This document shows, piece after piece, positions 5,784 through 21,622 of a DNA stretch of 24,484 nucleotides. The stretch is from a virus. Under the pieces are notes generated by a model that had not been told where the DNA came from, did no database searches, and saw only the letters and a program-made list of their open reading frames with translations. Location of the stretch: positions 1 to 24,484 of IMG/VR virus record IMGVR_UViG_3300029952_000124; one strand, given 5' to 3'. Each line of letters opens with the position of its first letter. The first letter of the stretch is position 1. Both the position numbers and the translations under genes were made by a program.

Positions 5784-6095
5784 ATGCAAACTATCCCGCT
5801 GATTGATGAATATGCACAAACGATCACGGTAGGGTTAGGCGGCCAGAATTGCACAATTAATTTATACCAGAAGTCGACCGGATTCTTTTGCGATCTGTAT
5901 GTAGGCGGCACACTTATTGTGGGCGGCGTACTGTGCAATAACTGGACCAAAATAGTCCAGAATACCTATCTCGGTTTTCTGGGTGATCTGGCTTTTTACG
6001 ATACGCAGGGAACAAATCCCCCAAGTAGTCCGGGACTCGGCGCGCGATATCTTCTTTATTATTTACAGGTATCTGATTTGAACGGGGCAGGTTGA
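5784..6095 (+). CDS. Baseplate plug protein (Pam3 gp18-like)
   Basis: 103 residues, starting two bases after the previous stop, with TTAGGA upstream. Motifs 'IPLIDEYAQTITVGLGGQNC', 'GFFCDLYVGG', 'NTYLGFLGDLAFYDTQGTNP' and 'GLGARYLLYYL' match my memory of the cyanophage baseplate Pam3 plug gp18 domain family. Such small beta proteins close the channel around the baseplate hub. Its TGA overlaps the start of the hub gene by one base. Confidence 0.72.
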   Translation: MQTIPLIDEYAQTITVGLGGQNCTINLYQKSTGFFCDLYVGGTLIVGGVLCNNWTKIVQNTYLGFLGDLAFYDTQGTNPPSSPGLGARYLLYYLQVSDLNGAG

Positions 6096-6985
6096 TGAGT
6101 TTCGTTAAACGTGTCATTGAAGTCACGCTCACATTAGGTACAGGCGATTTTGGAAACGGTCTTGGTAGTAGCGTAACGTTGTCAGGTTATCGTGTCCGGT
6201 GCGATTGTCAGATTCATGGCGGCGATGCTGGCGCCGCCGTACAGTTGCGTATATCCGGGGTAACGCTTCCGCTAATTAACCAGTTAACATGTCTTGGCCA
6301 AATTTTAGGCCAGTACAAAGGCGGTAATACAGTACGGGTTGCGGTCGGAAATAGCGGTTCAGCATTGACAACTATTTTTACAGGCTCGATTATCACCGCT
6401 TGGGGTGACTTTGCGTCGCCGCCCGATTCAGCATTGAATATTACCGCGATAGCCTATTTATGGCACGCAGTGTTGCCGGTGAACGCCTCAAGTTTTCCTG
6501 GTACAACGTCCATAAATACGATATTTCAGGCTATCGTAGCAGGTATGAATAATGCGGTGCCTTCACTTAATCTGACTTATTCCAATCCGCAAAATATTGC
6601 TACGACACTGACTAATATGTATCTTCCAGGGTCAGGCTTAGATCAGATCCGTGAATGCGCGGCGGCGGCAGGTGTAAATTATAAAATAGAATTAGGCGTA
6701 TTGACGATATGGCCGGTGAATGGTTTTATCCCGAATATAGGGTTAATACCTATCATATCGCCTAGTAACGGTCTGGTTAGTTACCCTACTTTTTCACAAC
6801 AGGGGGTTGATATAAAAACTGTATTTTTACCGAATCTGAGTCAGGGCAACCGATTTACGGTAACTGACAGCGCATTAACACTGGCTAATAACACCTGGAC
6901 CATTGCTTCTGCTGTACATACGCTGGAAAGCGAAACGCCGGGCGGCGCGTGGTTCACAGTATTAAAGGGGATATGGGTTGGATGA
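6095..6985 (+). CDS. Baseplate hub protein (gp27/gpD-like)
   Basis: I start this gene at the ATG at 6095, which overlaps the plug stop as TTGATG; the TTG three bases earlier is also possible but less likely. The 296-residue product is beta rich, starting 'FVKRVIEVTLTLGTGDFGNG' and containing 'LINQLTCLGQILGQ', 'NSGSALTTIFTGSIITAWGD' and 'LTYSNPQNIATTL', with 'YKIELGVLTIWPVNG' in the second half. The order plug, hub, spike, gp25 wedge supports a hub that links the tube to the spike. I see the fold type more by order and length than by a signature motif. Confidence 0.7.
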   Translation: MSFVKRVIEVTLTLGTGDFGNGLGSSVTLSGYRVRCDCQIHGGDAGAAVQLRISGVTLPLINQLTCLGQILGQYKGGNTVRVAVGNSGSALTTIFTGSIITAWGDFASPPDSALNITAIAYLWHAVLPVNASSFPGTTSINTIFQAIVAGMNNAVPSLNLTYSNPQNIATTLTNMYLPGSGLDQIRECAAAAGVNYKIELGVLTIWPVNGFIPNIGLIPIISPSNGLVSYPTFSQQGVDIKTVFLPNLSQGNRFTVTDSALTLANNTWTIASAVHTLESETPGGAWFTVLKGIWVG

Positions 6986-7754
6986 TGATGCTTATCAGAG
7001 TACGGCGACTGCAGCTAATATGCAGGGCGACTATAACGCGCTGATCTACACAATAACCCAAATACTAAATCGCAAACACACAGCAACATTAGTGCAGGTT
7101 GTTTCAGTCACTAATACGGGCACAGACGCCGCGGTTGGATTCGTTAGCGTACAGCCCCTAATTAATCAGACGGATGGATACGGTAACGCTATACCTCATT
7201 CTATTTTGAGTGGTGTGCCTTATTTCCGTATGCAGGGAGGGGCGAACGCAATAATTTTAGACCCACAAAAAGGCGATATCGGGCTGGCAGTTTTTGTTGA
7301 AAAAGACATCAGTAAGGTCGTGGCTAATAGCGCGTCAGCGTCATCCTCTACGGCAGGCACACCTAATAATCCGTTACTAAGCAACCCCGATTCGAACCGT
7401 CGGTTTTCCATGTCAGATGGCGTGTATTTTGGCGGATTTTTGAATGGGATACCAACGCAATACGTTCAGTTCAGTGCGACCGGTATAACGCTGGTATCGC
7501 CAAATCTGATCGAGCTGCAGGCAACGGATATTAAATTAGTTGCACCTACTATAGAGCTTAACGCAACATCGTCGGTCACAGTGACGACACCTACATTTAC
7601 GGTTAACGGTAACGCAGTGGTGACAGGCAGCGTGGCGGCGACTGGCGATGTAACAACAGCAGTAGGTGGGGGTCACAGTTTAACTACGCACCATCATCAG
7701 GTGGTTAACGTACAGACCGGCAGTTCAACTATCAACACAGGAACTACAGTTTAA
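6978..7754 (+). CDS. Baseplate central spike protein (Gp138 N-terminal domain)
   Basis: No ATG is available near the start in this frame; a stop lies at 6963-6965 and TTG at 6978 is preceded by AAAGGGG with about eight bases spacing, so I take TTG as the start, overlapping the hub gene by eight bases. The 258-residue protein has a Gp138-like OB domain ('TATLVQVVSVTNTGTDA', 'GFVSVQPLINQTDGYGNAIP', 'DPQKGDIGLAVFVEKDISKV'), then a repetitive beta-helix stem ('ITLVSPNLIELQATDIKL', 'TIELNATSS'), and a histidine-rich tip 'LTTHHHQV' (His238-240). In related spikes such histidines bind a metal ion at the membrane-piercing tip. Downstream ATG at 7020 lacks a ribosome site. Confidence 0.82.
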   Translation: MDDDAYQSTATAANMQGDYNALIYTITQILNRKHTATLVQVVSVTNTGTDAAVGFVSVQPLINQTDGYGNAIPHSILSGVPYFRMQGGANAIILDPQKGDIGLAVFVEKDISKVVANSASASSSTAGTPNNPLLSNPDSNRRFSMSDGVYFGGFLNGIPTQYVQFSATGITLVSPNLIELQATDIKLVAPTIELNATSSVTVTTPTFTVNGNAVVTGSVAATGDVTTAVGGGHSLTTHHHQVVNVQTGSSTINTGTTV

Positions 7755-8191
7755 TGAACACATTATTTTTGCTGCCGTCGACCTGGGATTTAGCGCAAGA
7801 TGCTTTCGGTAACATCGCAATGTCAACCGAACCTTACTCACTGGTGCAAGACGCGGCCAGTACCGTCAGGACATTCGCAGGCGAAGTTTATTATGATACG
7901 ACGCAAGGACTGCCTTATTTCACTCAGATTTTCGGTGTCACCCCTATACCCTATGAACTGATCCGCGCTAACGCTATTGCAGCAGCGAATACAACACCTG
8001 ATATCGCTTCGACACAACTGTTTTTTACCGGGCTTGTTAACCGCAGTTTATACGGTCAGCTTCAGGTGACGTCTGTAACCGGCGCAACAGCAGCTCTGGC
8101 TGTACCACTATCAGGCGGGCAAGGCGTACAGGGCGCGCAAACATTCACATTAGATGCATCCGTGTTAGGCGGCGGCGACATTTTAGGATGA
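7754..8191 (+). CDS. Baseplate wedge protein, gp25-like
   Basis: 145 residues; the ATG overlaps the spike stop (TTTAATG). The sequence 'TWDLAQDAFGNIAM', 'YSLVQDAASTVRTFAGEVYYDTTQGLPY' (seen across residues 28-55) and 'LIRANAIAAANTTPDIASTQ' is typical of the gp25/DUF2634-related wedge family, which forms the inner baseplate ring and seeds sheath contraction. It is followed at once by the fiber-like gene and then by baseplate J. Confidence 0.82.
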   Translation: MNTLFLLPSTWDLAQDAFGNIAMSTEPYSLVQDAASTVRTFAGEVYYDTTQGLPYFTQIFGVTPIPYELIRANAIAAANTTPDIASTQLFFTGLVNRSLYGQLQVTSVTGATAALAVPLSGGQGVQGAQTFTLDASVLGGGDILG

Positions 8192-8193
8192 CT

Positions 8194-9285
8194 ATGAAAA
8201 AAATTATCGTGTTTGTGCTGTTTCTGTCGGCGGGTGCACTGCTTTATTCGCAGACAACAGGATTTCCCTGGTCTGAAGGTCAGACAGTAACAGCGACATC
8301 CCTGAATAATGCTTTTACTGCACGCGTAACTTATACCTCTGGCCCACTCTTAAAATACGGTGTGATGCTGGGAAACGGTTACGGCGACAGCCAGACGCTT
8401 AATAACTACGGTCTGAGTAGCTACGTACTAACATCTAACGGTCCTGGTGTACCGCCTTACTGGGCGCCGGGCGGCGGCGGGTCATTTACTTACCCAGGTG
8501 CCGGGATACCTAATTCGTCCGGATCTGCATGGCTTCCTTCTTACGCTACAACCGGAACAGGTAACGTTGTTTTATCTAACGGCGGCACTTTAGTCGCCCC
8601 TGCGCTGGGTATGCCAGCGTCAGGCGATATAACGAATCTGACAGGTACGTGCGCTGCTTGTAATATTAGCGGAAACGCAGCAACAACTACATTGGCCGCT
8701 GAAGCGACCGCTACAGCGGGCGGGACCACGAATACTATTTCCTACCAGACAGCGCCAGGTGTGACGGCCTATATCACGGCGCCGGTATCATCATCAACAT
8801 TTTTAGAGTGGAACGGCACATCTTTTATTTGGGGCACTTCACCAGGAGGCTTCACTAACCCGATGACGACGGCGGGCGATCTGATTTACGGCGGCGCCAG
8901 CGGCACCCCAACCAGATTACCAACAGGGTCAGGCGTTCTTGTTGGCGGTACCACACCAAGCTACAGTTTAAATGTGCCCGGCTTAACGGCAGGCTACGCC
9001 ACCTTAGCGGCTACAGCGGTTAATGTGTACGGCGGATCAGTCAGCACAAACAGCGTAACACTGACCAGTGGGCGTGCAGGCACATTTACCTGCACATCGG
9101 GGGGATCGATCACGATCACAAACACGAATATATTATCAACGTCTAACGTTATCATCTCAACGAATACCCCAGGCGGTACTGTTTCATGGACGCCAAACAT
9201 TAAAACGATTACCAGCGCGACGTCTTTTGTTGTTATTTGCGCTACCTCAGACACCAGTATTTATAATTACGTCATTTTGAATTAA
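8194..9285 (+). CDS. Fiber-like protein with N-terminal signal peptide
   Basis: Two ATGs are available, 8188 and 8194; AGGA at 8185-8188 is correctly spaced only for 8194. The product (363 residues) starts MKKIIVFVLFLSAGALLYS, a Sec signal peptide, with likely cleavage just before 'QTTGFPW'. The mature part looks like phage fiber material: 'WSEGQTVTATSLNNAFTA', 'GTGNVVLSNGGTLVAPALG', 'NPMTTAGDLIYGGASGTPTR', and a C-terminal beta strand set ending 'NYVILN'. The place in the baseplate cluster, between gp25-like and baseplate J genes, suggests a tail component, but a signal peptide is odd for a cytoplasmically assembled virion. It may be a secreted or membrane-anchored protein. Confidence 0.7.
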   Translation: MKKIIVFVLFLSAGALLYSQTTGFPWSEGQTVTATSLNNAFTARVTYTSGPLLKYGVMLGNGYGDSQTLNNYGLSSYVLTSNGPGVPPYWAPGGGGSFTYPGAGIPNSSGSAWLPSYATTGTGNVVLSNGGTLVAPALGMPASGDITNLTGTCAACNISGNAATTTLAAEATATAGGTTNTISYQTAPGVTAYITAPVSSSTFLEWNGTSFIWGTSPGGFTNPMTTAGDLIYGGASGTPTRLPTGSGVLVGGTTPSYSLNVPGLTAGYATLAATAVNVYGGSVSTNSVTLTSGRAGTFTCTSGGSITITNTNILSTSNVIISTNTPGGTVSWTPNIKTITSATSFVVICATSDTSIYNYVILN

Positions 9286-9318: not shown

Positions 9319-10731
9319 ATGTCGACAAACGTACCATTTCCAAGTATAGGCACGAACGGTTGGGTACCGCCAACTGAAGAAGCAATACTGACTGGCGTTC
9401 AGGCGGATTTAAACCAGGCTTTCGGCGGTAATCTTAATCCTGCACTGACATCGCCCCAAGGTCAGTTAGCGACATCGCTGACAGCGATTATTGGCGACGT
9501 GAATAGTCAGTTTTTGACGCTGATGAATAATGTCGACCCTGCGTTTTCTTCCGGGCGGATGCAAGACGCTATCGGGCGCATTTATTTTATGACCCGTATC
9601 GCTGCGCAGGCCACTGTCGTTACCTGCACCTGCATAGGCGCTGTCGGGGCAATTATACCTATTAACGCTACGGCGATCGATCAGGCAGGCAATATCTATC
9701 TGGCCACAGCAGGCGGAACAATACCAACAGGCGGCAGTATATCGCTGACGTTTGAATGCAGTACCGCCGGACCTATCGCCTGCCCTATCGGCTATTTAAG
9801 TTCTATTTACAAAACGGTACCTGGCTGGAACAGCATTTACAACCCGGCTGCAGGTGTAGTCGGGTACAACACGGAGACACCCCAGGCATTCGAATTGCGC
9901 CGCGAACAATCTGTCGCGATTAATGCGCAAGGTAGTCTGCCGGCGGTTGTGTCGGCCTTATTCGCCGTAGCTGGCGTGGAAGATGTTTACGTTATTCAGA
10001 ACCCGCTACCCATTGCGAGCGGCGCTGTTGTTACAGGCAGTATTTCAGGCACAACGTTCACTGTTACTGCAGTAGCATCCGGTACTGTTGCGGTCAATCA
10101 GATGCTGACAGGAAGCGGTATTACGCAAGGCACTTATATCACATCGCTGGGTACAGGCACAGGTAGTACGGGAACATACGCGCTGAATTTTTCACAGACT
10201 GTCGGCAGTGAATCCATCACCTGTGCAGTAGGCGGTGTTCAGTTGCTGCCCAACTCAATTTATGCGTCTGTATATGGCGGCGTTGCACAAGCAATCGGTA
10301 ACGCCTTGTGGGCTAACGTCAGTCCCGGGTGTAACTACAACGGAAATACGACCGTGACAGTGTATGACACCGCTTCAGGTTATAACCCGCCCTACCCGTC
10401 TTATCAGATTGCTTTTGAAACACCGGCGGCCACACCAATACTGTTTAGTATTTCTATGCAGTTAAATAGTAATACGCCTTCTAACGCTATCGCTTTAGTT
10501 CAGGCTGCGGTAATTCAGTCTTTTGCAGGGCAAGACGGCGGCACTAAGGCGCGTATTGGCAGTTCTCTTTATTCCAGCAGATACTACGCTAATATTGCCG
10601 CGCTCGGTTCGTGGGCGGTTATTTACTCAATAGAATTAGGCGTTACAGCACCGACGCTAAGTTCGGTGTTGATGGCAGCGAATCAGGTTCCGACTTTATC
10701 AGCAACGAATATCGCCGTAGTTTTCTCTTAA
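9319..10731 (+). CDS. Baseplate wedge protein J (gp47/gp6-like) with inserted beta domain
   Basis: 470 residues; TTAGGA precedes the ATG. '[20 protein letters not shown]', '[19 protein letters not shown]', '[20 protein letters not shown]', '[11 protein letters not shown]' and 'SIYASVYGG' mark it as a Baseplate_J family wedge, the ring component of contractile tails. Between 'YVIQNP' and '[17 protein letters not shown]', where homologues normally have only a short strand connection, there is one copy of the recurrent beta domain (residues about 239-302). The next gene starts one base after the stop. Confidence 0.87.
10033..10224 (+). repeat. Recurrent beta domain, copy 3 (baseplate J residues ~239-302)
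   Basis: '[20 protein letters not shown]', '[13 protein letters not shown]', '[20 protein letters not shown]', 'ESITC'. It interrupts the usual link between two conserved baseplate J strands. Confidence 0.82.
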
Positions 10732-10732
10732 T

Positions 10733-12229
10733 ATGCAAAATTTAGAACAAACAATTCTTGCTCAGTACGCCAATTCGCCAACACTAAATAGTGTGGTTCA
10801 GGCATGGAATTCTGAGTTAGACCCAACAACTAATATCAATAATTTTTACAATAACGTATGGAATATTGAAACGGCGACCGGCTACGGTCTGCAGGTGTGG
10901 GGGCGTATCGTTAATATCGGTAACACGGTGAGTTTGCCTGCGGGTATGCCATTTGGTTTTGAAGAAGCAACAACAGCCAGCGCGGCGGAATTCGGGCAGT
11001 CCAATTTCTATAACGGAACGCAAACAACCAGTAATTACGTGTTGTCAGATCCAGTGTTCAGGACGCTTATTCTGGCTAAAGCGCTCATGAATATCAGCAC
11101 ATCGACGTCATCTGCCTACAACCAGATTTTAATGGCGTTATTCCCCGGCAGGGGAAACGCTTACGTAACAAATTTAGGTAACATGCAGGCCAGGCTGACT
11201 TTCGAATTTACGCTGCAGCCTTACGAATTAGCGATTATTAAGCAGACAGGAGCGATCACACCACCGACCGGCGTTCTGTTTGATGTTATGCAGGTTCAGT
11301 TGCCTTTTGCTTTTGGTTTTGCTGAAGCCGATGGCGGGTCAGCTTTTCCTGCCGTCGTTATTAATTCTATTTACGCCGCGACGTGGCAGGGTAACCAATT
11401 ACAGTACACAACACCCCGGACTAACTATCTGGACAATGCAGCATTAAATGTGCTGACACAATGTACGGCCACCTATAATAATGCAACGTCACCAGACGGT
11501 ACAACTGATGCTACGTTAATCACACTAAGCGCAGCAGTTACCGCGCCAGTTTGCGGATGGACTTCAGCAGGCACACCTTTTTCGTCCACTAATTTTTCAG
11601 GGTTAGCAACTACTTTTTCTGTTTATGTTTTGGTTGGCACACTAACCTGCACGGTTGATCTGTTCATTAATGACGGCAGCGGAACGCTGCAGGCTAACAG
11701 TACGGTAAATATTGCCACAGGCGCGATTACGAATATAGCTGCCGGGGGTGTTGTAGTTACTCCTTTAGCGGGCGGTTGGTATTGCTTCGCCATAACGGCT
11801 ACGTTTGCCGGCGGCTCTGCAAACGGTTACGAATGCTATGTCACGCCAGACGCCAGTTCAGCTAACGATAACCAGACATTTTGGATTGCTAATTCACAGT
11901 TTGAATCGGGGGCAGGGCAGACCAGTTTCATACCGACATCAACCACGTCTGGCGCTACGGTCACAGATTATACGCCCGGCGTGGATAACAGCACAGTCAC
12001 TTTTAGTGTCGCACCTGCAGCCACAGTCGCCCTGACATGGAATGGTACAGCACAAAGTAACATCGTTAGCGGCGACAGCGCGACAGCACAAAACGCGCTG
12101 TTTGGAACCGGAAACGGTACTACAACAACATTCAACATGACGAATAATTTGCCAATTACGATATATTTAAGCGGGTTAGGCAGCGCTACAGGATTTAATA
12201 CCGGCACACTTTTTGAAGGGTACTCTTAA
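10733..12229 (+). CDS. Baseplate protein DUF2612 (gp48-like) fused to a carbohydrate-binding-like domain
   Basis: 498 residues beginning at an ATG one base after the J stop (CTCTTAATATG). No clear ribosome site is seen, so reinitiation is likely. Residues 1-200 resemble DUF2612: '[20 protein letters not shown]', '[20 protein letters not shown]', '[19 protein letters not shown]', '[19 protein letters not shown]'. Residues about 225-420 look like the lectin-like domain common in phage head and tail spikes: '[11 protein letters not shown]' at its start and '[20 protein letters not shown]' at its end. The C-terminus adds a second small beta region. The fusion suggests the baseplate itself carries a surface-binding head. 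Confidence 0.75.
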
Positions 12230-12230
12230 T

Positions 12231-13517
12231 ATGCAAGTAGCAAATGTTCCGGCAGGGTTCCCGATTCCCTTCGCTAATAACGCGGGAGCCGGATTTATAC
12301 GAACAATCCCGACAGCTTCTCAGATAGGCATCACAGCAGGGGCGGCATCGCTTACTGACGGGTTCCCCCCTCTGACATTTAACCCTACAGCCGCTGGCGG
12401 CGTACCTCCTTTCGGTCAGGATTTTAACGGCATACTGAAGGAAATAACTGCGGCGATTCAAGGTTTGCAGGCCGGGTATATATACGGTTTTAGCCCTACA
12501 TTTTGCGAAGCGATCGGAGGCTATCCAAACGGCGCAATTATCGCAAATGCTGCGCGTAATACGTTCTGGGTATCGACAGCGGATAACAATTTAACGAATC
12601 CAGACGCAGCTAACGCCACCTTTACAGGGTACATTACCGGCACAATTCTGACTGTTACGGCTATCAGTACAGGTACTGTCGCTATCGGACAACTTTTGTC
12701 TGGCACCGGCGTAACTTTAAATACGCAGATTGTTAGTTTTGGCACAGGATCTGGCGGTACAGGAACGTACAACGTACAGACGACGCAAACCAATAGCAGC
12801 ACGACGATTACGGCTGCTGGTGCATCGAACTGGCAGTATTTCATTCAGACACTAGGTAACTTAAGTGTTGAGGCTTTTTCGGCCGTTAGCGCCGCTATCA
12901 GCGGTAGTTTTTCCGCATCAGCATTAAACGCATCGGGTACGGCGTTAGGTATTACCAACGTATCAGGATCTGGTACGGCGTGGTACAAATCTTTTTTCGG
13001 CGTATCAGGATCGGCCATTTTTCTGTTGTCATCTTCAGTACAGGCATCCCAGGCTGCGGCAAATGCGGCGTCATACACTTCTTACCGGCCCTTCCAGTGG
13101 AATGCCAGTACAGGTGCAGTGACAATAGATGCCACGGGAGCGGGAGCTTATTTTGGCGGGGCGGCCTTCGCGGCGACAGCAGCATCAAATACGGCGACAA
13201 CACAGCTGGCAACAACGGCTTTTGCTAATCCTGGCAATTCCATCAGCGCAAACGGCTACGTAAAACTGCCTAGCGGGATTATTTTTCAGTGGACGCAAGG
13301 GGCTAATCAGGCAGTTGCAGGCAGCCAGGTTGTTAACTTCCCGATCACATTCCCCAACGCAGTGCTGAAAGTGTGCGTATCGAGCTTATATTCATCCGCT
13401 TCTCAGTACGGGACTTACGGATTCTATTCATCAGCAGTTGGCTCAGCAGCCGTGATACGGAGCAATTCAGATAACGGTAATGGTGTCACCCCGGTTATTT
13501 TCGCCATCGGGTATTAA
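12231..13517 (+). CDS. Tail fiber protein 1 (gp53-like C-terminal domain)
   Basis: The ATG at 12231 is one base after the previous stop and has GAAGGG upstream; an in-frame TTG at 12213 lies inside the preceding gene and is rejected. The 428-residue protein has the prophage-type fiber N-terminus ('[20 protein letters not shown]', '[14 protein letters not shown]', '[20 protein letters not shown]'), one recurrent beta domain (132-195), an alanine/serine-rich shaft, the '[15 protein letters not shown]' linker, and a gp53-like tip ('[17 protein letters not shown]', '[19 protein letters not shown]'). It probably contacts the receptor. It is paralogous to the next gene. Confidence 0.8.
12624..12815 (+). 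repeat. Recurrent beta domain, copy 4 (fiber 1 residues ~132-195)
   Basis: '[20 protein letters not shown]', '[19 protein letters not shown]', '[15 protein letters not shown]', 'TTITA'. Closest to copy 5 at the nucleotide level. Confidence 0.82.
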
Positions 13518-13532
13518 TTAAAAAGGTAACGC

Positions 13533-14477
13533 ATGCAAGCTTCTAACGCACCAACCCCTTTTCCGATACCTTTTGCGAATGCCGCCGGAGGTTCTTACAC
13601 AAGGCCCATACCGACTGCTTCGCAGATTAACGTAACACCAGGGGCGGCATCATTAACTGACGGTTTTCCCCCGCTCACTTTCGTATCGGTATCTAACGGC
13701 GGGGTCCCTCCTTTCGGTCAGGATTTTAACGGGCTGCTAAACGAAATAACGTCAGCTATACAGTGGCTGCAGGCGGGTTTCACCCCAAGCTATAACGCCG
13801 CGTTTTGCCAGTTTGTGGGCGGCTATGCATCAGGCGCCGTATTAGGTAACGCAGCCGGAACAACATTCTGGAAATCGACAGCCGATAATAACTTTTCTAA
13901 TCCTGATGCGGCAGCAGCCTCTGTTACCGGCACAATTACCGGTACAGTTTTAAATGTGACCGCTGTTGGTTCAGGTACGCTGGTTTTAGGTCACATTTTG
14001 TCAGGTACGGGTGTGACGACCGGCACACAGATTGTCAGTTTTGGTACAGGATCAGGCGGGACAGGGACGTATAACCTGCAAAACTCGATGACGGTCGGGA
14101 GCGAAACGATTACAGCGGCAGCAGCGGCCAACTGGGTTATTTATAACCAGCTAGGCGCAACGCAAGCGACGAACACCAGCAACACGACGCTGGCCACCAC
14201 GGCGTTTGCTAACCCCGGTGCGTCGCTGGGCACATCAGGCTACGCTAAGCTGCCTAGCGGACTGATTATACAGTGGGGAACCGTGTCAGCAACCACGGCA
14301 GGTGTCGCCGTGACTTTTGCGATTACCTTTCCAACCGGCGCTTACACCTGTACGCCGGCAGCGCAGAACGGCGCTACCGTCGCGGCCTTGTCATCTTCAG
14401 TACCGACAACAACGGGGGCCACGATTTATGCGGCTTCCGGAACCGTTGCCGCAACTTATATTACTATCGGCCATTAA
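13533..14477 (+). CDS. Tail fiber protein 2, tandem paralogue of fiber 1
   Basis: 314 residues with its ATG after AAAAGGTAAC. The N-terminus ('[20 protein letters not shown]', '[20 protein letters not shown]'), the position of the inserted beta domain (again residues 132-195) and the gp53-like tip ('[20 protein letters not shown]', '[13 protein letters not shown]') match fiber 1. It lacks about 100 residues of the shaft. Several nucleotide stretches in the first 250 bases are identical between the two, pointing to a tandem duplication followed by divergence of the tip. Two fibers with different tips could widen the host range; that is inference. Confidence 0.8.
13926..14117 (+). repeat. Recurrent beta domain, copy 5 (fiber 2 residues ~132-195)
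   Basis: '[20 protein letters not shown]', '[19 protein letters not shown]', '[20 protein letters not shown]'. Same position and near-identical core as copy 4. Confidence 0.82.
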
Positions 14478-15866: not shown

Positions 15867-16050
15867 AATTGCATACCACGTCAGCCAGGATGCGCTGGGC
15901 TGGATATCTCTGTTTCTGGGTTGTCTTATCGGGTGTGTCGTATTAAAAATAAAAATAAGCGAGTTGAAAATAACCCGGTTGCGGGAGAAACGCGAAGGGT
16001 TATTAGAAGACAGAACCCATACAGATAAGGATGACTATGACGCCGGCTGA
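15760..16050 (+). CDS. Putative holin
   Basis: 96 residues; ATG overlaps the previous stop (ATAATG). A helix with charged residues (1-20) leads to hydrophobic segments at about 27-42 and 47-66 ('GWISLFLGCLIGCVVL'), then a charged C-terminus 'ITRLREKREGLLEDRTHTDK'. Two spans and a basic/charged tail next to an endolysin gene are typical of class II holins, which permeabilise the inner membrane. An inner-membrane spanin is a less likely alternative, because it would need an N-terminal anchor and long periplasmic coil. The endolysin start overlaps its last 14 bases. Confidence 0.58.
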   Translation: MNILTQIVTEKVKEILETPTAAATTAISTGLMGFLEIAYHVSQDALGWISLFLGCLIGCVVLKIKISELKITRLREKREGLLEDRTHTDKDDYDAG

Positions 16051-16528
16051 TTTTATTACTACTATAGCCCCGGTTGCGCAATCTGGTTTTGCAGCATCAG
16101 GCATCTGGCCTTCCTTTGTCATCGTTCAGGCTATTTTTGAATCGAGCTGGGGCGGCAGTGAACTAACCCAGCAAGCTAACAATCTGTTTGGCATCAAGGC
16201 GGATTCAGGCTGGACCGGCGCGACGTTTTCGATGCCTACTGGCGAAGATGTTTTGGTTGACCCAACTAATCCGGCAAGCGGATATAAAAAAATTATTGTG
16301 CAGGCGAACTGGCGTAGCTATCCTGACTGGCTTTCATCAATTCAGGACCACGCTAATTTTCTGCGTACTAATCAACGTTACGCAGCCGCGTTTCAGACAA
16401 CAAATGTGAATGATTTTATTCAGGCGATTGCGGCAGCCGGTTATTCGACAAACCCTAATTACGCAACGATGCTGACGGACGAAATAAGCGCGCGTAATTT
16501 AACTCAGTACGATACGGTGACATCATGA
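16037..16528 (+). CDS. Endolysin: N-acetylglucosaminidase
   Basis: ATGs occur at 16031 and 16037; AGGA at 16028-16031 is properly spaced only for 16037, giving 163 residues. The sequence is a single glucosaminidase domain of the FlgJ/LytG type: 'FITTIAPVAQSGFAASGIWP', then 'QAIFESSWGGSELTQQANNL' with the likely catalytic Glu at residue 35, 'FGIKADSGWTGATFSMPTGE', and 'WRSYPDWLSSIQDHANFL'. It cleaves the glycan strands of peptidoglycan. No signal peptide is present, so release should depend on a holin; candidate holins flank it on both sides. Confidence 0.88.
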   Translation: MTPADFITTIAPVAQSGFAASGIWPSFVIVQAIFESSWGGSELTQQANNLFGIKADSGWTGATFSMPTGEDVLVDPTNPASGYKKIIVQANWRSYPDWLSSIQDHANFLRTNQRYAAAFQTTNVNDFIQAIAAAGYSTNPNYATMLTDEISARNLTQYDTVTS

Positions 16529-17354: not shown

Positions 17355-18014
17355 ATGAGCGATTTAACTAATGCGGCGAAATTGGCTTGTACGTATATCT
17401 ACTTTCCGATTAATAAAGCCGCATTCAGTAAGCTGTATCAGGCTGGTGAAACCATCTGTGGAACCGCTATCGTTGATGGCGTGTTTCACATTTGCTTTCA
17501 GGGCACGGCCAATCTGCACGGCTGGATTGCCGACTTCGATGTGCTACCTTACCGGCACCCGACGTTTGGCAATGTTCACAGTGGCTTCTACGAGAATCTG
17601 CCCGCCATTTTAAAGTTCCTGATACCTGATATTCCTGCGGGTTTTAAAATCGTTGTCAGCGGCCACTCTAAAGGCGCAGGTGAAGGCGTACTGTGCGCAG
17701 CGGAACTGATACTGGCAGGTTTTAAAGAAGTGTCCTGCATTCTGTTCGCCTGTCCTAACGCGGGTGAAAAACAATTTTGCAGCTGGGTGCAAAAAAACAT
17801 ACCGGGTATATCGTTTCGTAACGTGTTTAAAAAACTAAAGTGGTTCGGCGATTTGGTACCAGTGGTACCTGAATACCCCTACGGGCCGCCTTATCCGCAC
17901 ACTTTTATAACCCGGTACCCGCCGGGTTTTTTACGTTTTCTTCCTGCCCACTGGCATTCATCTAAACTGTATTATCAGGGCACGCTAAAATTTAGCGCCC
18001 ATCCGGAGAAGTAA
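17355..18014 (+). CDS. Class 3 lipase / esterase
   Basis: 219 residues, starting just after the previous stop. It has the class 3 lipase signature: the oxyanion strand 'FHICFQGTANLHGWIADF' (residues 44-61), 'VHSGFYEN' (74-81), the nucleophile elbow 'VSGHSKGAGEG' with Ser105, a likely catalytic Asp166 in 'FGDLVPVVP', and His201 in 'HWHSSKLYYQG'. It would hydrolyse acylglycerols or other esters. No signal peptide is present, so it may act at lysis, on membrane lipids, or be carried in the virion. It lies between the lysis genes and a secreted GH18 protein. A lipase is uncommon in phage late regions. Confidence 0.83.
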   Translation: MSDLTNAAKLACTYIYFPINKAAFSKLYQAGETICGTAIVDGVFHICFQGTANLHGWIADFDVLPYRHPTFGNVHSGFYENLPAILKFLIPDIPAGFKIVVSGHSKGAGEGVLCAAELILAGFKEVSCILFACPNAGEKQFCSWVQKNIPGISFRNVFKKLKWFGDLVPVVPEYPYGPPYPHTFITRYPPGFLRFLPAHWHSSKLYYQGTLKFSAHPEK

Positions 18015-19439
18015 ATGAAAAAATTAGTTTCTTTTGTTTTATTTGCGCTGATGTTTTCCGTTGCCAGTGCGCAGGTCACTTTTGCCCCTTTCATGTTGTA
18101 TAGTGACGACTACACCTATACGTCCAATACGGCGGCAAATGCGTCAGGGGGCCTTTATCCTTACGACCCTCACTACGCGATCTACCCTAATTCAATTATC
18201 ACATCGCTGACTACGCAAACTGTGTCCACGCAGTTTGCGCAAAGTGTCTGGTCCTCAATGCCACCGGATCTTAAAACGCTAACCTGGGGATTCACTGTTA
18301 ACAACCCGGCATCAACAACCTGTCCGATGCCCATCTTCGAGCCTAATATTCCGGCTGCTGTTGCTGCTGCTGTCAACATTCCCTCATTCATTGCAAACGG
18401 TAAAACCTATTTTGTCTCCGCCGGGGGTGCAGGGCACACCTTTAAATGTAATTCAGGCACCAGCCCTAATAATACGGCGTTCATGACTTACGTGAATACG
18501 TTCGTGAGTCCTAATTTGTTAGGTTTTGACTTTGACATTGAAGGGCAGACTATTGTCAACAGTTCTTATACGGGCACTATTTGTAATTCTGGCTGCACAG
18601 GTGTGGGTAACATCCTGACAGTGACCGCCGACACTACGCCGGTATCACTGGGGCAGGAAATATATAATAACGGTCTGGCAGTGGGTGTGTACTATATCAT
18701 CGCGATGAGCGGTTCCCAGCTAAACGGGGTGACTGCCTGCGGATCCTGCACTGGGACAGGCGGAACAGGGACGTATTTAGTTGGTAAGGTGAATAATGTA
18801 GCGGCCAGTTTAAATATAACATCGGGGGTATTTGGCACGTCAACGCCGAACTATTCCCAAAACGACGTCTTTAATCTTATCGAAGAGATGAACTACGCGC
18901 AGACGACTTACCCAGGTCTGCAATGGAGTTTTCAGGTTGGCGGCAACGCCTGTTCAGTCGGATGCTCTACCGGCTTCTCTCAGTATGCTGTCTGGATTCA
19001 GGAAGCTATGGCGGTCTATCCGGTTACTAATTACGTATTTGTGCTGCAGGCTGGCGATTTTTTACAGCAATCTAATCAGTGCGTTATTTCGGCCGGCGTG
19101 TGCGAGATGGGGTTATCGGTTATTCAGGAGATGCAGAACGCGCATAACTACAACGGAATCCCTTACGCTAATCTTGGTGTAAATCCGTATATAGGCGGCA
19201 ATGACTGGGTGGGAGGTACGATCGACTTTCTTACGATTGCCGATGTGGCTACAATAACGACCTGGTTCACTGCAAATGGCTTAAACCGGATCACCCCCTG
19301 GGCCTATTCGCGCGATTTTGATTGTGCCACCCAGGCGTCACCTAACACGTCAAGTGACACCTGTAATAATTACGGTAGTGTCGGTACGGCTGGCACACTG
19401 GGATTTACCAAAGCGTTTTTATCCGGGCTGGGGCAGTGA
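18015..19439 (+). CDS. Secreted GH18 (chitinase-like) glycoside hydrolase with inserted beta domain
   Basis: 474 residues; the ATG directly follows the lipase stop, with CGGAGAAG upstream. Residues 1-19 are a Sec signal peptide (MKKLVSFVLF, then 'SVASA' before the cut). The GH18 active-site strand is 'LLGFDFDIEGQ' (residues 168-178, acid Glu176). Near the end 'GVNPYIGGND' and 'LNRITPWAYSRDFDC' resemble the last conserved strands of bacterial GH18 chitinases. Residues about 185-271 hold a Cys-containing variant of the recurrent beta domain, right after the active-site strand, and lengthen the enzyme. It would cleave chitin or another beta-1,4 amino sugar polymer outside the cell. Substrate is not shown. 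Confidence 0.78.
   Translation: MKKLVSFVLFALMFSVASAQVTFAPFMLYSDDYTYTSNTAANASGGLYPYDPHYAIYPNSIITSLTTQTVSTQFAQSVWSSMPPDLKTLTWGFTVNNPASTTCPMPIFEPNIPAAVAAAVNIPSFIANGKTYFVSAGGAGHTFKCNSGTSPNNTAFMTYVNTFVSPNLLGFDFDIEGQTIVNSSYTGTICNSGCTGVGNILTVTADTTPVSLGQEIYNNGLAVGVYYIIAMSGSQLNGVTACGSCTGTGGTGTYLVGKVNNVAASLNITSGVFGTSTPNYSQNDVFNLIEEMNYAQTTYPGLQWSFQVGGNACSVGCSTGFSQYAVWIQEAMAVYPVTNYVFVLQAGDFLQQSNQCVISAGVCEMGLSVIQEMQNAHNYNGIPYANLGVNPYIGGNDWVGGTIDFLTIADVATITTWFTANGLNRITPWAYSRDFDCATQASPNTSSDTCNNYGSVGTAGTLGFTKAFLSGLGQ
18567..18827 (+). repeat. Recurrent beta domain, copy 6 (GH18 residues ~185-271), diverged
   Basis: 'YTGTICNSGCTGVGNILTVT', 'SLGQEIYNNGLAVGVYYI', 'GSCTGTGGTGTYLVGKVNNV', 'SLNITSG'. It keeps the motif order of the other copies but gains two cysteine pairs (Cys190/194 and Cys242/245). 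Confidence 0.65.
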
Positions 19440-19776: not shown

Positions 19777-20000
19777 GGTTGTTCCTTAATAAACTTAAGG
19801 TGACTGGCAGGCACAATCTCAACCTTGCCCTTATCACGCTCGATAATAGCAATCGGGAACATGCAACCACCAGATTCGAATTCTTCATAATCTTGGCCGA
19901 ATTGGTGGAATACTGCCTTACCATCAGGCACCAGATGCTTAGCCTTGCAGGTTTTTGGATCAATCCATTCATACCTAAAAATTTCGACTGTGCGGTTCAT
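19773..20000 (-). CDS. Small hypothetical protein
   Basis: 75 residues. ATG at 20000 overlaps the upstream TGA (ATGA) and GGAGG lies upstream. The sequence 'EIFRYEWIDPKTCKAKHLVP', 'FGQDYEEFESGGCMFPIAII' and 'GKVEIVPASHLKFI' looks like a small beta protein seen in phage accessory operons; I cannot assign a function. A plus-strand ORF in the same place is an antisense shadow. Confidence 0.65.
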   Translation of the reverse strand: MNRTVEIFRYEWIDPKTCKAKHLVPDGKAVFHQFGQDYEEFESGGCMFPIAIIERDKGKVEIVPASHLKFIKEQP

Positions 20001-20725
20001 TTCACTTCCTCCGTAGTTGGCATTGCTTCATTCAGCTTCTGCAACTCCGTAATCCTGCTCAAAATAACCTGATCCAATGCTTCCAGTGGTGGGCATACTT
20101 CATCAAGGAAATCTAACCCGGCTTGGAAGCTAGCTTCTTTCATGGCGGCGTACCCGGCGGACTTGGCGTACTGGGCGGCGTACTGGGCGGACTTGGCGGC
20201 GGACTCGGCGGCGGACTGGGCGTACCCGACGGCGGACTCGACGGCGGACTCGGCGGCGGACTGGGCGTACTGGGCGTACTTGGCGTACTGGGCGGACTCG
20301 ACGGCGTACCCGACGGCGGACTTGGCGTACCCGACGGCGGACTCGGCGTACCCGACGGCGGACTTGGCGTACTCGACGGCGTACCCGGCGTACCCGGCGG
20401 ACTTGGCAAAATATGCTGCCAGTCTCGCGTTAAATTCCGCATACTTAACAACTGCTTTCAATCGACGCTCCATCTCAACTTTGTTGTCTGTAGCAGAGCC
20501 GAATGCACGTAGAATAAACGGCACCATACGCTGACGCAGTTCGTCATCAGCAAAATCGTTTAGCCAGATTGCTATTAGCCTGATCGTAGGGCAAACGCAG
20601 GTTGATTTATCGGTTATTTGTGCTTCACCATTAAGATAACTGATGACATTCATAAAACAGCCGTGACCAGTTGTAGCTGTATCTGCGTGCGTTCCTGATA
20701 GTAATTTAATTGCTTCGATTTTCAT
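19997..20725 (-). CDS. Hypothetical protein with alanine-rich heptad repeat
   Basis: 242 residues, ATG at 20725 with GGAG upstream. Residues 9-75 ('LLSGTHADTATTGHGCFMNV', 'YLNGEAQITDKSTCVCPTIR', 'LRQRMVPFILRAFGSA') match a conserved phage hypothetical family whose role I do not know. Residues about 107-194 are built from units of three or four residues ending S/Y-Ala, for example AKSAVGY AESAVGY, averaging 3.5 residues per alanine. That is the a/d spacing of an alanine coiled coil. The tail (195-242) is an ordinary helix. The repeat DNA is much richer in GC than the flanks and so may expand or shrink. Confidence 0.75.
   Translation of the reverse strand: MKIEAIKLLSGTHADTATTGHGCFMNVISYLNGEAQITDKSTCVCPTIRLIAIWLNDFADDELRQRMVPFILRAFGSATDNKVEMERRLKAVVKYAEFNARLAAYFAKSAGYAGYAVEYAKSAVGYAESAVGYAKSAVGYAVESAQYAKYAQYAQSAAESAVESAVGYAQSAAESAAKSAQYAAQYAKSAGYAAMKEASFQAGLDFLDEVCPPLEALDQVILSRITELQKLNEAMPTTEEVK
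20144..20407. repeat. GC-rich short tandem repeat tract (9/12 bp modules)
   Basis: About 264 bases made of modules such as GGCGGACTTGGCG, GGCGTACCCGACGGCGGACT and close variants, in units of 9 or 12 bases. On the minus strand each encodes x-Ser/Tyr-Ala or Val/Ala-x-Ser/Tyr-Ala. Both strands are open in several frames because of the composition, so plus-strand ORFs here are artefacts. Confidence 0.85.
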
Positions 20726-20923: not shown

Positions 20924-21622
20924 TTAAATTGCCAATAAAGGTGCCAGAACTGAGGCTTCGTTCTGCGCTTTAATCGCATAGAGAGCGTCGTCTGGGTGAG
21001 TCCCATCGCTCAGCATTGAACACCATCCGGGAATCGCCAAAATAGCGTCATACTGTTTTATGAGTGCCAGGTTATATTCCGCAGCGGTGTCGTCGATAAC
21101 CTGAACTAAGGGGTTCGGGTAAATTTGTAGCCCTGTCATTTTGTCACACTGAGGGTTAGGCTCCTCTAGTACAACCACTTTACCGGCGGCTTGCGAAAGC
21201 TGGATAAAAGTTATTAAGTTCTGTTTAAACTGTTCTGGCGTATCGTGAGCTGCGTCATTGATCGCAAAATTCTCGACGATGATATTTGCCGGATTGTTAG
21301 TTATCTCAGTTGCAAAAGGGGTTGTGTAAAGATCGGTACCATCTAATAACTCAGCCAGTGTAGTTCCGCTTTCACCGTAATTTTTAGTTGTAACGCCGTC
21401 GCCAAAAGTAGCTTGCAAATCAATTTGTAAATCGGCAGGCGCATTATTTTTAGTGATGATGTACCCTCCATTCACGTAAGTAGCTCCTGCCATCGTAGAG
21501 TCGCCGTACATGGCAATTTGGACTTGTATTTCTGGCTTAATCGTACTCGGCGTGTTTTGACTAGAGCTGCCTCCGCCGCAACCAGCTAAAGCGGTAAAAA
21601 TTAATAAAATTAACGTTTTCAT
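20924..21622 (-). CDS. SGNH/GDSL hydrolase lipoprotein
   Basis: 232 residues, ATG at 21622 with GGAGAAAC upstream. The N-terminus 'MKTLILLIFTALAGCGGG' is a lipoprotein signal with lipobox Cys15. The mature enzyme shows the SGNH blocks: 'IAMYGDSTMAG' (nucleophile Ser42), the Gly region 'KNYGESGTTL', 'ENFAINDAAH' as the Asn block, and 'DGTHPDDALY' with Asp206 and His209. It should be an esterase or acetyl hydrolase tethered to the cell envelope, perhaps acting on acylated polysaccharide. A putative promoter lies about 70 bases upstream. It may modify the host surface; substrate is unknown. Confidence 0.82.
   Translation of the reverse strand: MKTLILLIFTALAGCGGGSSSQNTPSTIKPEIQVQIAMYGDSTMAGATYVNGGYIITKNNAPADLQIDLQATFGDGVTTKNYGESGTTLAELLDGTDLYTTPFATEITNNPANIIVENFAINDAAHDTPEQFKQNLITFIQLSQAAGKVVVLEEPNPQCDKMTGLQIYPNPLVQVIDDTAAEYNLALIKQYDAILAIPGWCSMLSDGTHPDDALYAIKAQNEASVLAPLLAI

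Follow-up and report, generated by a model that had tools for sequence, protein, structure and literature searches.

How does a tailed phage come to carry a secreted GH18-fold enzyme that is broken open right behind its catalytic strand, and what does the inserted piece have to do with the virion? This question is raised by an open reading frame at positions 18015-19439 of a 24.5 kb virus record (IMGVR_UViG_3300029952_000124, 24,484 nucleotides), which is analyzed here as a whole and called the window. An initial annotation, made from the sequence alone, had described the product as a GH18 enzyme interrupted by a beta domain that recurs in the proteins of the same phage. All features below lie on the plus strand unless stated otherwise.

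Read directly from the sequence, the frame starts with ATG, is served by a Shine-Dalgarno sequence (GGAGAAG, 18005-18011), and encodes a GH18-fold secreted protein of 474 aa. It is the final plus-strand gene of a late block comprising tail sheath, baseplate and fiber genes, a fiber-assembly-like gene, a glucosaminidase endolysin (16031-16528; PF01832, E=7e-31) and a class 3 lipase (17355-18014; PF01764, E=9.6e-14). The stop codon of the lipase abuts the GH18 ATG with zero gap, and minus-strand genes converge on the GH18 gene. The N-terminus carries the signal peptide claimed by the initial annotation: residues 1-19 (18015-18071) read MKKLVSFVLFALMFSVASA, a Sec signal with cleavage likely after ASA, and N-termini of the same kind are seen in two phage relatives described below (L121 and L122). 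A sibling phage of 57 kb, IMGVR_UViG_3300037262_000028 (G001), shares 98.6% identity with the window over a common 8 kb including the GH18 gene. Its GH18 protein is identical at 473 of 474 residues; the single change, G193D, falls inside the insert, and the corresponding codon change is the sole nucleotide difference in the gene. The lipase gene, directly coupled to the GH18 gene, encodes no obvious signal peptide, and a pattern-limited scan of IMG/VR matched it elsewhere only in the sibling phage.

Is the protein a GH18 member at all? Scans of Pfam, PHROGs and NCBIfam with the protein itself returned zero matches, and the direct PF00704 search proposed earlier thus left it unmatched. A PF00704 match is a detection aid for GH18 and not a defining trait, and the miss can be put down to divergence, because bacterial relatives do match this model and a phage relative that lacks the insert (L121) gets no further than E=0.18. 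Relatives of the protein were not found by tblastn against 50,697 phage records, and a class-wide genome search gave none closer than those known. A phmmer search against the PDB detected the exochitinase 9buf at E=2.2e-4, and tblastn led to an insert-free protein of Burkholderia arboris that serves as a bridge, matching 9buf at 1.2e-21, a Pyrococcus furiosus chitinase at 4.4e-11 and PF00704 at 8.8e-4. Closer Burkholderiales relatives are about 40-41% identical to the phage protein. Among ten close relatives scanned in full, PF00704 was detected at E < 0.01 in every one (above the curated cut-off in two), and eight bear CBM5/12 chitin-binding modules. The best bacterial relatives belong to Burkholderiales, a taxonomy that is no proof of the phage host.

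Structure prediction points in the same direction. An AlphaFold (AF2) model, built from five sequences only (pLDDT 53.5, pTM 0.60), has an alternating beta/alpha pattern with a TIM-barrel-like core in which the insert is not resolved. Searching the PDB with this model in Foldseek gives seven matches at E < 0.001, every one a GH18 chitinase; the best is 9buf_B, at E=3.2e-8 and with a target-based TM-score of 0.70. The barrel is composed of two parts, residues 20-177 (18072-18545), which hold an SAGG motif at 135-138, and residues 281-474 (18855-19436), with 41% identity to bacterial GH18 over 281-473. The earlier reading had been staked on a TIM barrel with Glu176 at its mouth; the model contains the barrel and places E176 just behind the strand 168-175. 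Together with the link of the relatives to PF00704, these matches uphold the claim of a GH18 enzyme at the fold level, and we regard the predicted fold as a solid assignment despite the modest confidence of the model.

The active-site motifs are largely kept. FDFDIEG, named in the initial annotation as the catalytic strand, is found at residues 171-177 (18525-18545), and its D172, D174 and E176 are invariant in 18/18 aligned bacterial relatives. They provide the DxDxE signature of GH18 with the catalytic Glu ending beta-4; in the longer DxxDxDxE form the first Asp is replaced by Leu169, and this Asp is absent from insert-free relatives too. The SxGG motif and the beta-8 Trp of GH18 are represented by SAGG and by the invariant W429, the first residue of the late WAYSRD motif, which was likewise found where it had been read (residues 429-434; 19299-19316). 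D397 is kept as well. The departure lies in beta-6, where NLMxMDYG is nearly invariant in the family and, with its Tyr, is a trait of active chitinases in this GH18 subgroup. The phage protein lacks this trait and has VLQAGDFL at residues 343-350 (19041-19064) instead, with the changes N343V, M345Q, M347G, Y349F and G350L, so that Phe349 stands in place of Tyr. The altered motif may entail lowered or abolished activity, or a changed substrate. A protein with abolished activity would be a non-cutting binder of GlcNAc polymers with a GH18 fold, comparable to chitinase-like lectins, and the insert would be an added binding surface. The loss of five nearly invariant beta-6 residues speaks for such a binder, but D172, D174, E176, SxGG, D397 and W429 are all retained, and Phe also replaces the beta-6 Tyr in a Pfam-positive relative (L003, MTMSFG), which makes this alternative unlikely in our estimate. 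Judged by its residues, the protein is probably an active but altered GlcNAc-polymer hydrolase.

Between the two barrel parts lies the inserted beta domain, residues 178-280 (18546-18854). From the catalytic Glu to the position in helix 4 equivalent to L288, all 18 bacterial relatives have 9-11 residues, compared with 111 in the phage protein, in agreement with the earlier placement of an insertion right after the catalytic strand. The insert of about 103 residues is absent from 18/18 bacterial relatives and from both other phage relatives. By this alignment, the interruption of the barrel behind the catalytic residue is real, and the arrangement is unusual. The two new cysteine pairs ascribed to the inserted domain correspond to four new cysteines, C190, C194, C242 and C245. 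A further phage-specific pair, C313/C317, lies outside the insert, and the pairs 103/145, 356/363 and 437/450 are common to many relatives.

The proposed source of the insert is a beta domain of 60-69 residues, rich in Gly and Thr. In this phage it is found in the tail sheath protein (ORF 437-2374; copies at 938-1144 and 1145-1327), a baseplate J-like protein (ORF 9319-10731; 10027-10224) and two tail fiber proteins (ORF 12213-13517, copy 12618-12818; ORF 13533-14477, copy 13920-14120). It is the region common to phrog_21413 and phrog_38233, and a limited scan of IMG/VR that used four domain copies as queries confirmed over 300 loci. When 25 domain-bearing proteins of other phages were compared with PHROGs, every matched family with a known function was a head closure, virion structural, baseplate or tail family, and none was an enzyme; these proteins were picked from the best matches to the virion copies, a sample that may miss rarer enzyme cases. 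The scans run contain no dedicated Pfam model for the domain, PDB sequence searches with it gave nothing credible, and tblastn found little, probably through masking by the low-complexity filter. The sibling phage has a further ORF of 392 aa with three tandem copies of the domain (L006, minus strand from 17247).

Is the insert a copy of this domain? A profile HMM of length 64 was built from 160 viral copies, and the insert matches it with 13.7 bits in one collinear alignment covering HMM positions 7-60; its extra length falls in one hairpin, which bears C242 and C245. Residue shuffles of the insert (n=2000) reached 6.1 bits at best, the reversed insert scored -4.6 bits, and bacterial GH18 relatives scored at most 1.6 bits. 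Among 1220 tiles, the GH18 insert alone exceeded 7 bits outside the domain-bearing virion proteins. The insert might nevertheless be an unrelated Gly/Thr-rich expansion that merely resembles the tail domain, given that its pairwise scores against single domain copies are weak (p 0.005-0.19) and that 1 of 2000 three-residue-block shuffles outscores the real sequence. Such an expansion is hard to reconcile with a collinear match over most of the profile at more than twice the best residue-shuffle score or with the low score of the reversed sequence. Nor does the structural model favor it: modeled alone from 78 aligned rows (virion protein copies and the insert of the sibling), the insert is predicted to be all-beta, at a pLDDT of 52.7 and with no significant Foldseek match in the PDB. 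We therefore consider an unrelated expansion quite unlikely. Pairwise comparison alone would miss the kinship, so it is the profile level that carries the claim, and at this level the insert is probably a diverged, remote copy of the virion domain of this phage. The identification of the insert with the recurrent domain thus holds at a remote level, and the proposed tie to the virion genes stands in the sense of shared ancestry of the domain and does not extend to the enzyme being part of the virion. The cysteines set this copy apart: 156 of the 160 viral copies have none and no copy has two or more, whereas four are present in the GH18 insert, as would suit an exported protein in an oxidizing compartment.

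Comparison with other phages helps to place the insertion in time. An integrase-bearing phage, IMGVR_UViG_3300015202_000020 (L121), encodes a GH18 protein without the insert at 6001-6990, and the gene follows a lysozyme gene and other lysis-type genes where the late genes end. Over the 40 of 42.6 kb searched, this phage has only the fiber C-terminus, the fiber-assembly-like gene and the GH18 gene in common with the window, and no copy of the recurrent domain was found in that stretch. It provides a new case, an insert-free GH18 orthologue at the same late-operon position in a phage whose searched stretch is free of the domain. A second phage, IMGVR_UViG_3300048796_000091, has a GH18 gene (L122:5923-8823) that adjoins its tail sheath gene and encodes 966 aa; the product is extended far at its C-terminus, and this part weakly matches CBM5/12. 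When the tree is calculated without the insert, the three phage GH18 proteins form one clade (support 100/99) among Burkholderiales sequences; the window and L121 proteins are sisters (99/97), a placement to be read with caution on account of long branches. The simplest history suggested by these sequences is a single phage GH18 lineage in which the insertion was gained in the line with domain-rich virion proteins. One may then ask whether the enzyme is a virion-borne depolymerase attached through the inserted domain. The domain is otherwise found in virion proteins, both of this phage and of the sample of others, and the L122 gene adjoins a tail sheath gene. However, the Sec signal peptide and the extra cysteines fit export and not cytoplasmic virion assembly, the gene is grouped with lysis genes and not with tail genes, and the L121 orthologue does without the insert. 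We find attachment to the virion very doubtful.

The best explanation, to which we assign a probability of roughly 0.55, is a late exported GH18 hydrolase of GlcNAc polymers with a virion-type beta domain at the rim of its active site. Such a protein, of a phage GH18 lineage, would be made late in infection together with the lysis genes, exported by Sec, folded with the aid of disulfides in the periplasm, and released on lysis. E176 would act as acid/base and D174 would position the N-acetyl group of the substrate, as in the usual GH18 route. Polymers of beta-1,4-linked GlcNAc are the most likely to be cut, the first candidate being chitin-like material around the host. Chitin is favored because most close relatives bear chitin-binding modules and because a phage-borne chitinase, the prophage chitinase of Pseudomonas phage KT1, supports its host on chitin (PMC11788074); the KT1 enzyme differs from the window protein in being a GH19 of 177 aa. 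As for the insert, the phage's own tail-protein domain would have entered the loop that follows the catalytic strand once this lineage had split from the insert-free phage relative. From this position, just past the catalytic Glu, it would be expected to contribute to the rim of the substrate cleft, probably as a binding or docking surface, and would take over from the CBM5/12 module of the bacterial relatives. That the window protein itself has no chitin-binding module counts against this explanation, as do the altered beta-6 motif, the low confidence of the AF2 models and the remote kinship of insert and tail domain.

Peptidoglycan as substrate and pure binding are less likely readings. The former would make the protein an auxiliary of lysis, a GH18 enzyme in the periplasm that cleaves the glycan strands of peptidoglycan alongside the glucosaminidase endolysin. 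Its signal peptide suits this role, as does the position of the gene, which adjoins the endolysin and lysis genes in the window and lies behind the lysozyme gene in L121. Yet a full endolysin is already present in each phage, the nearest relatives belong to the chitinase type and bear CBM5/12, and no sequence feature indicates peptidoglycan specificity; we rate the role as somewhat unlikely. A broader and clearly speculative idea, with the odds well against it, is that phages move a virion "decoration" domain among unrelated proteins. Its entry into the rim of an exported glycosidase would here create a tail-like binding surface, so that enzyme and particle could share a target or aim at each other.

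Among characterized systems, the hydrolase domain of Streptomyces venezuelae chitinase 1 (9buf) and the Pyrococcus furiosus chitinase domain (2dsk) resemble the window protein in the barrel, SxGG, the DxDxE region, and the beta-7 ND and beta-8 Trp motifs, but they have no insertion behind the catalytic strand and an intact beta-6 MDY. Burkholderiales CBM5/12-GH18 proteins (L014, L015, L016 and L026) match both barrel parts at about 40% identity with conserved cysteine pairs, but have N-terminal chitin-binding modules in most cases, no insert and an intact NLMxMDYG. The L121 protein belongs to the same clade, also has a signal peptide and is likewise encoded where the late genes end, but lacks the insert. 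Inserted domains are known from GH18 enzymes: the chitinase insertion domain (CID) of subfamily A is an alpha+beta domain between beta-7 and alpha-7 that is native to chitinases (PMC2805709), and ChiW has two insertion subdomains (PMC5132251). The present insert resembles the CID as a domain able to wall the substrate cleft, but is not a CID, since it follows beta-4, is predicted to be all-beta and is of virion type. The limited literature sample describes no GH18 insertion after the catalytic strand or of virion type. The locus is a clear-cut natural example of an enzyme into which a virion-type domain has been inserted, and because bacteria and another phage have orthologues that lack the insert, the effect of the insertion is directly testable. 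It also gives a handle on a common phage domain and documents a phage-specific GH18 lineage.

Several other genes in the window deserve mention. On the minus strand, 19997-20725 encodes a protein with long repeats of the YAKSA/ESAVGYAQ type, a stretch that differs between the window and the sibling phage, and 20924-21622 encodes a GDSL-type hydrolase whose N-terminus is signal-like. The alignment with the sibling stops at about 20920, and hence the hydrolase gene lies outside the aligned stretch. In the tail region, 8188-9285 encodes a protein whose N-terminus looks like a signal peptide, of a kind also seen in the GH18 protein, and which weakly matches the C-terminal domain of a K1 lyase.
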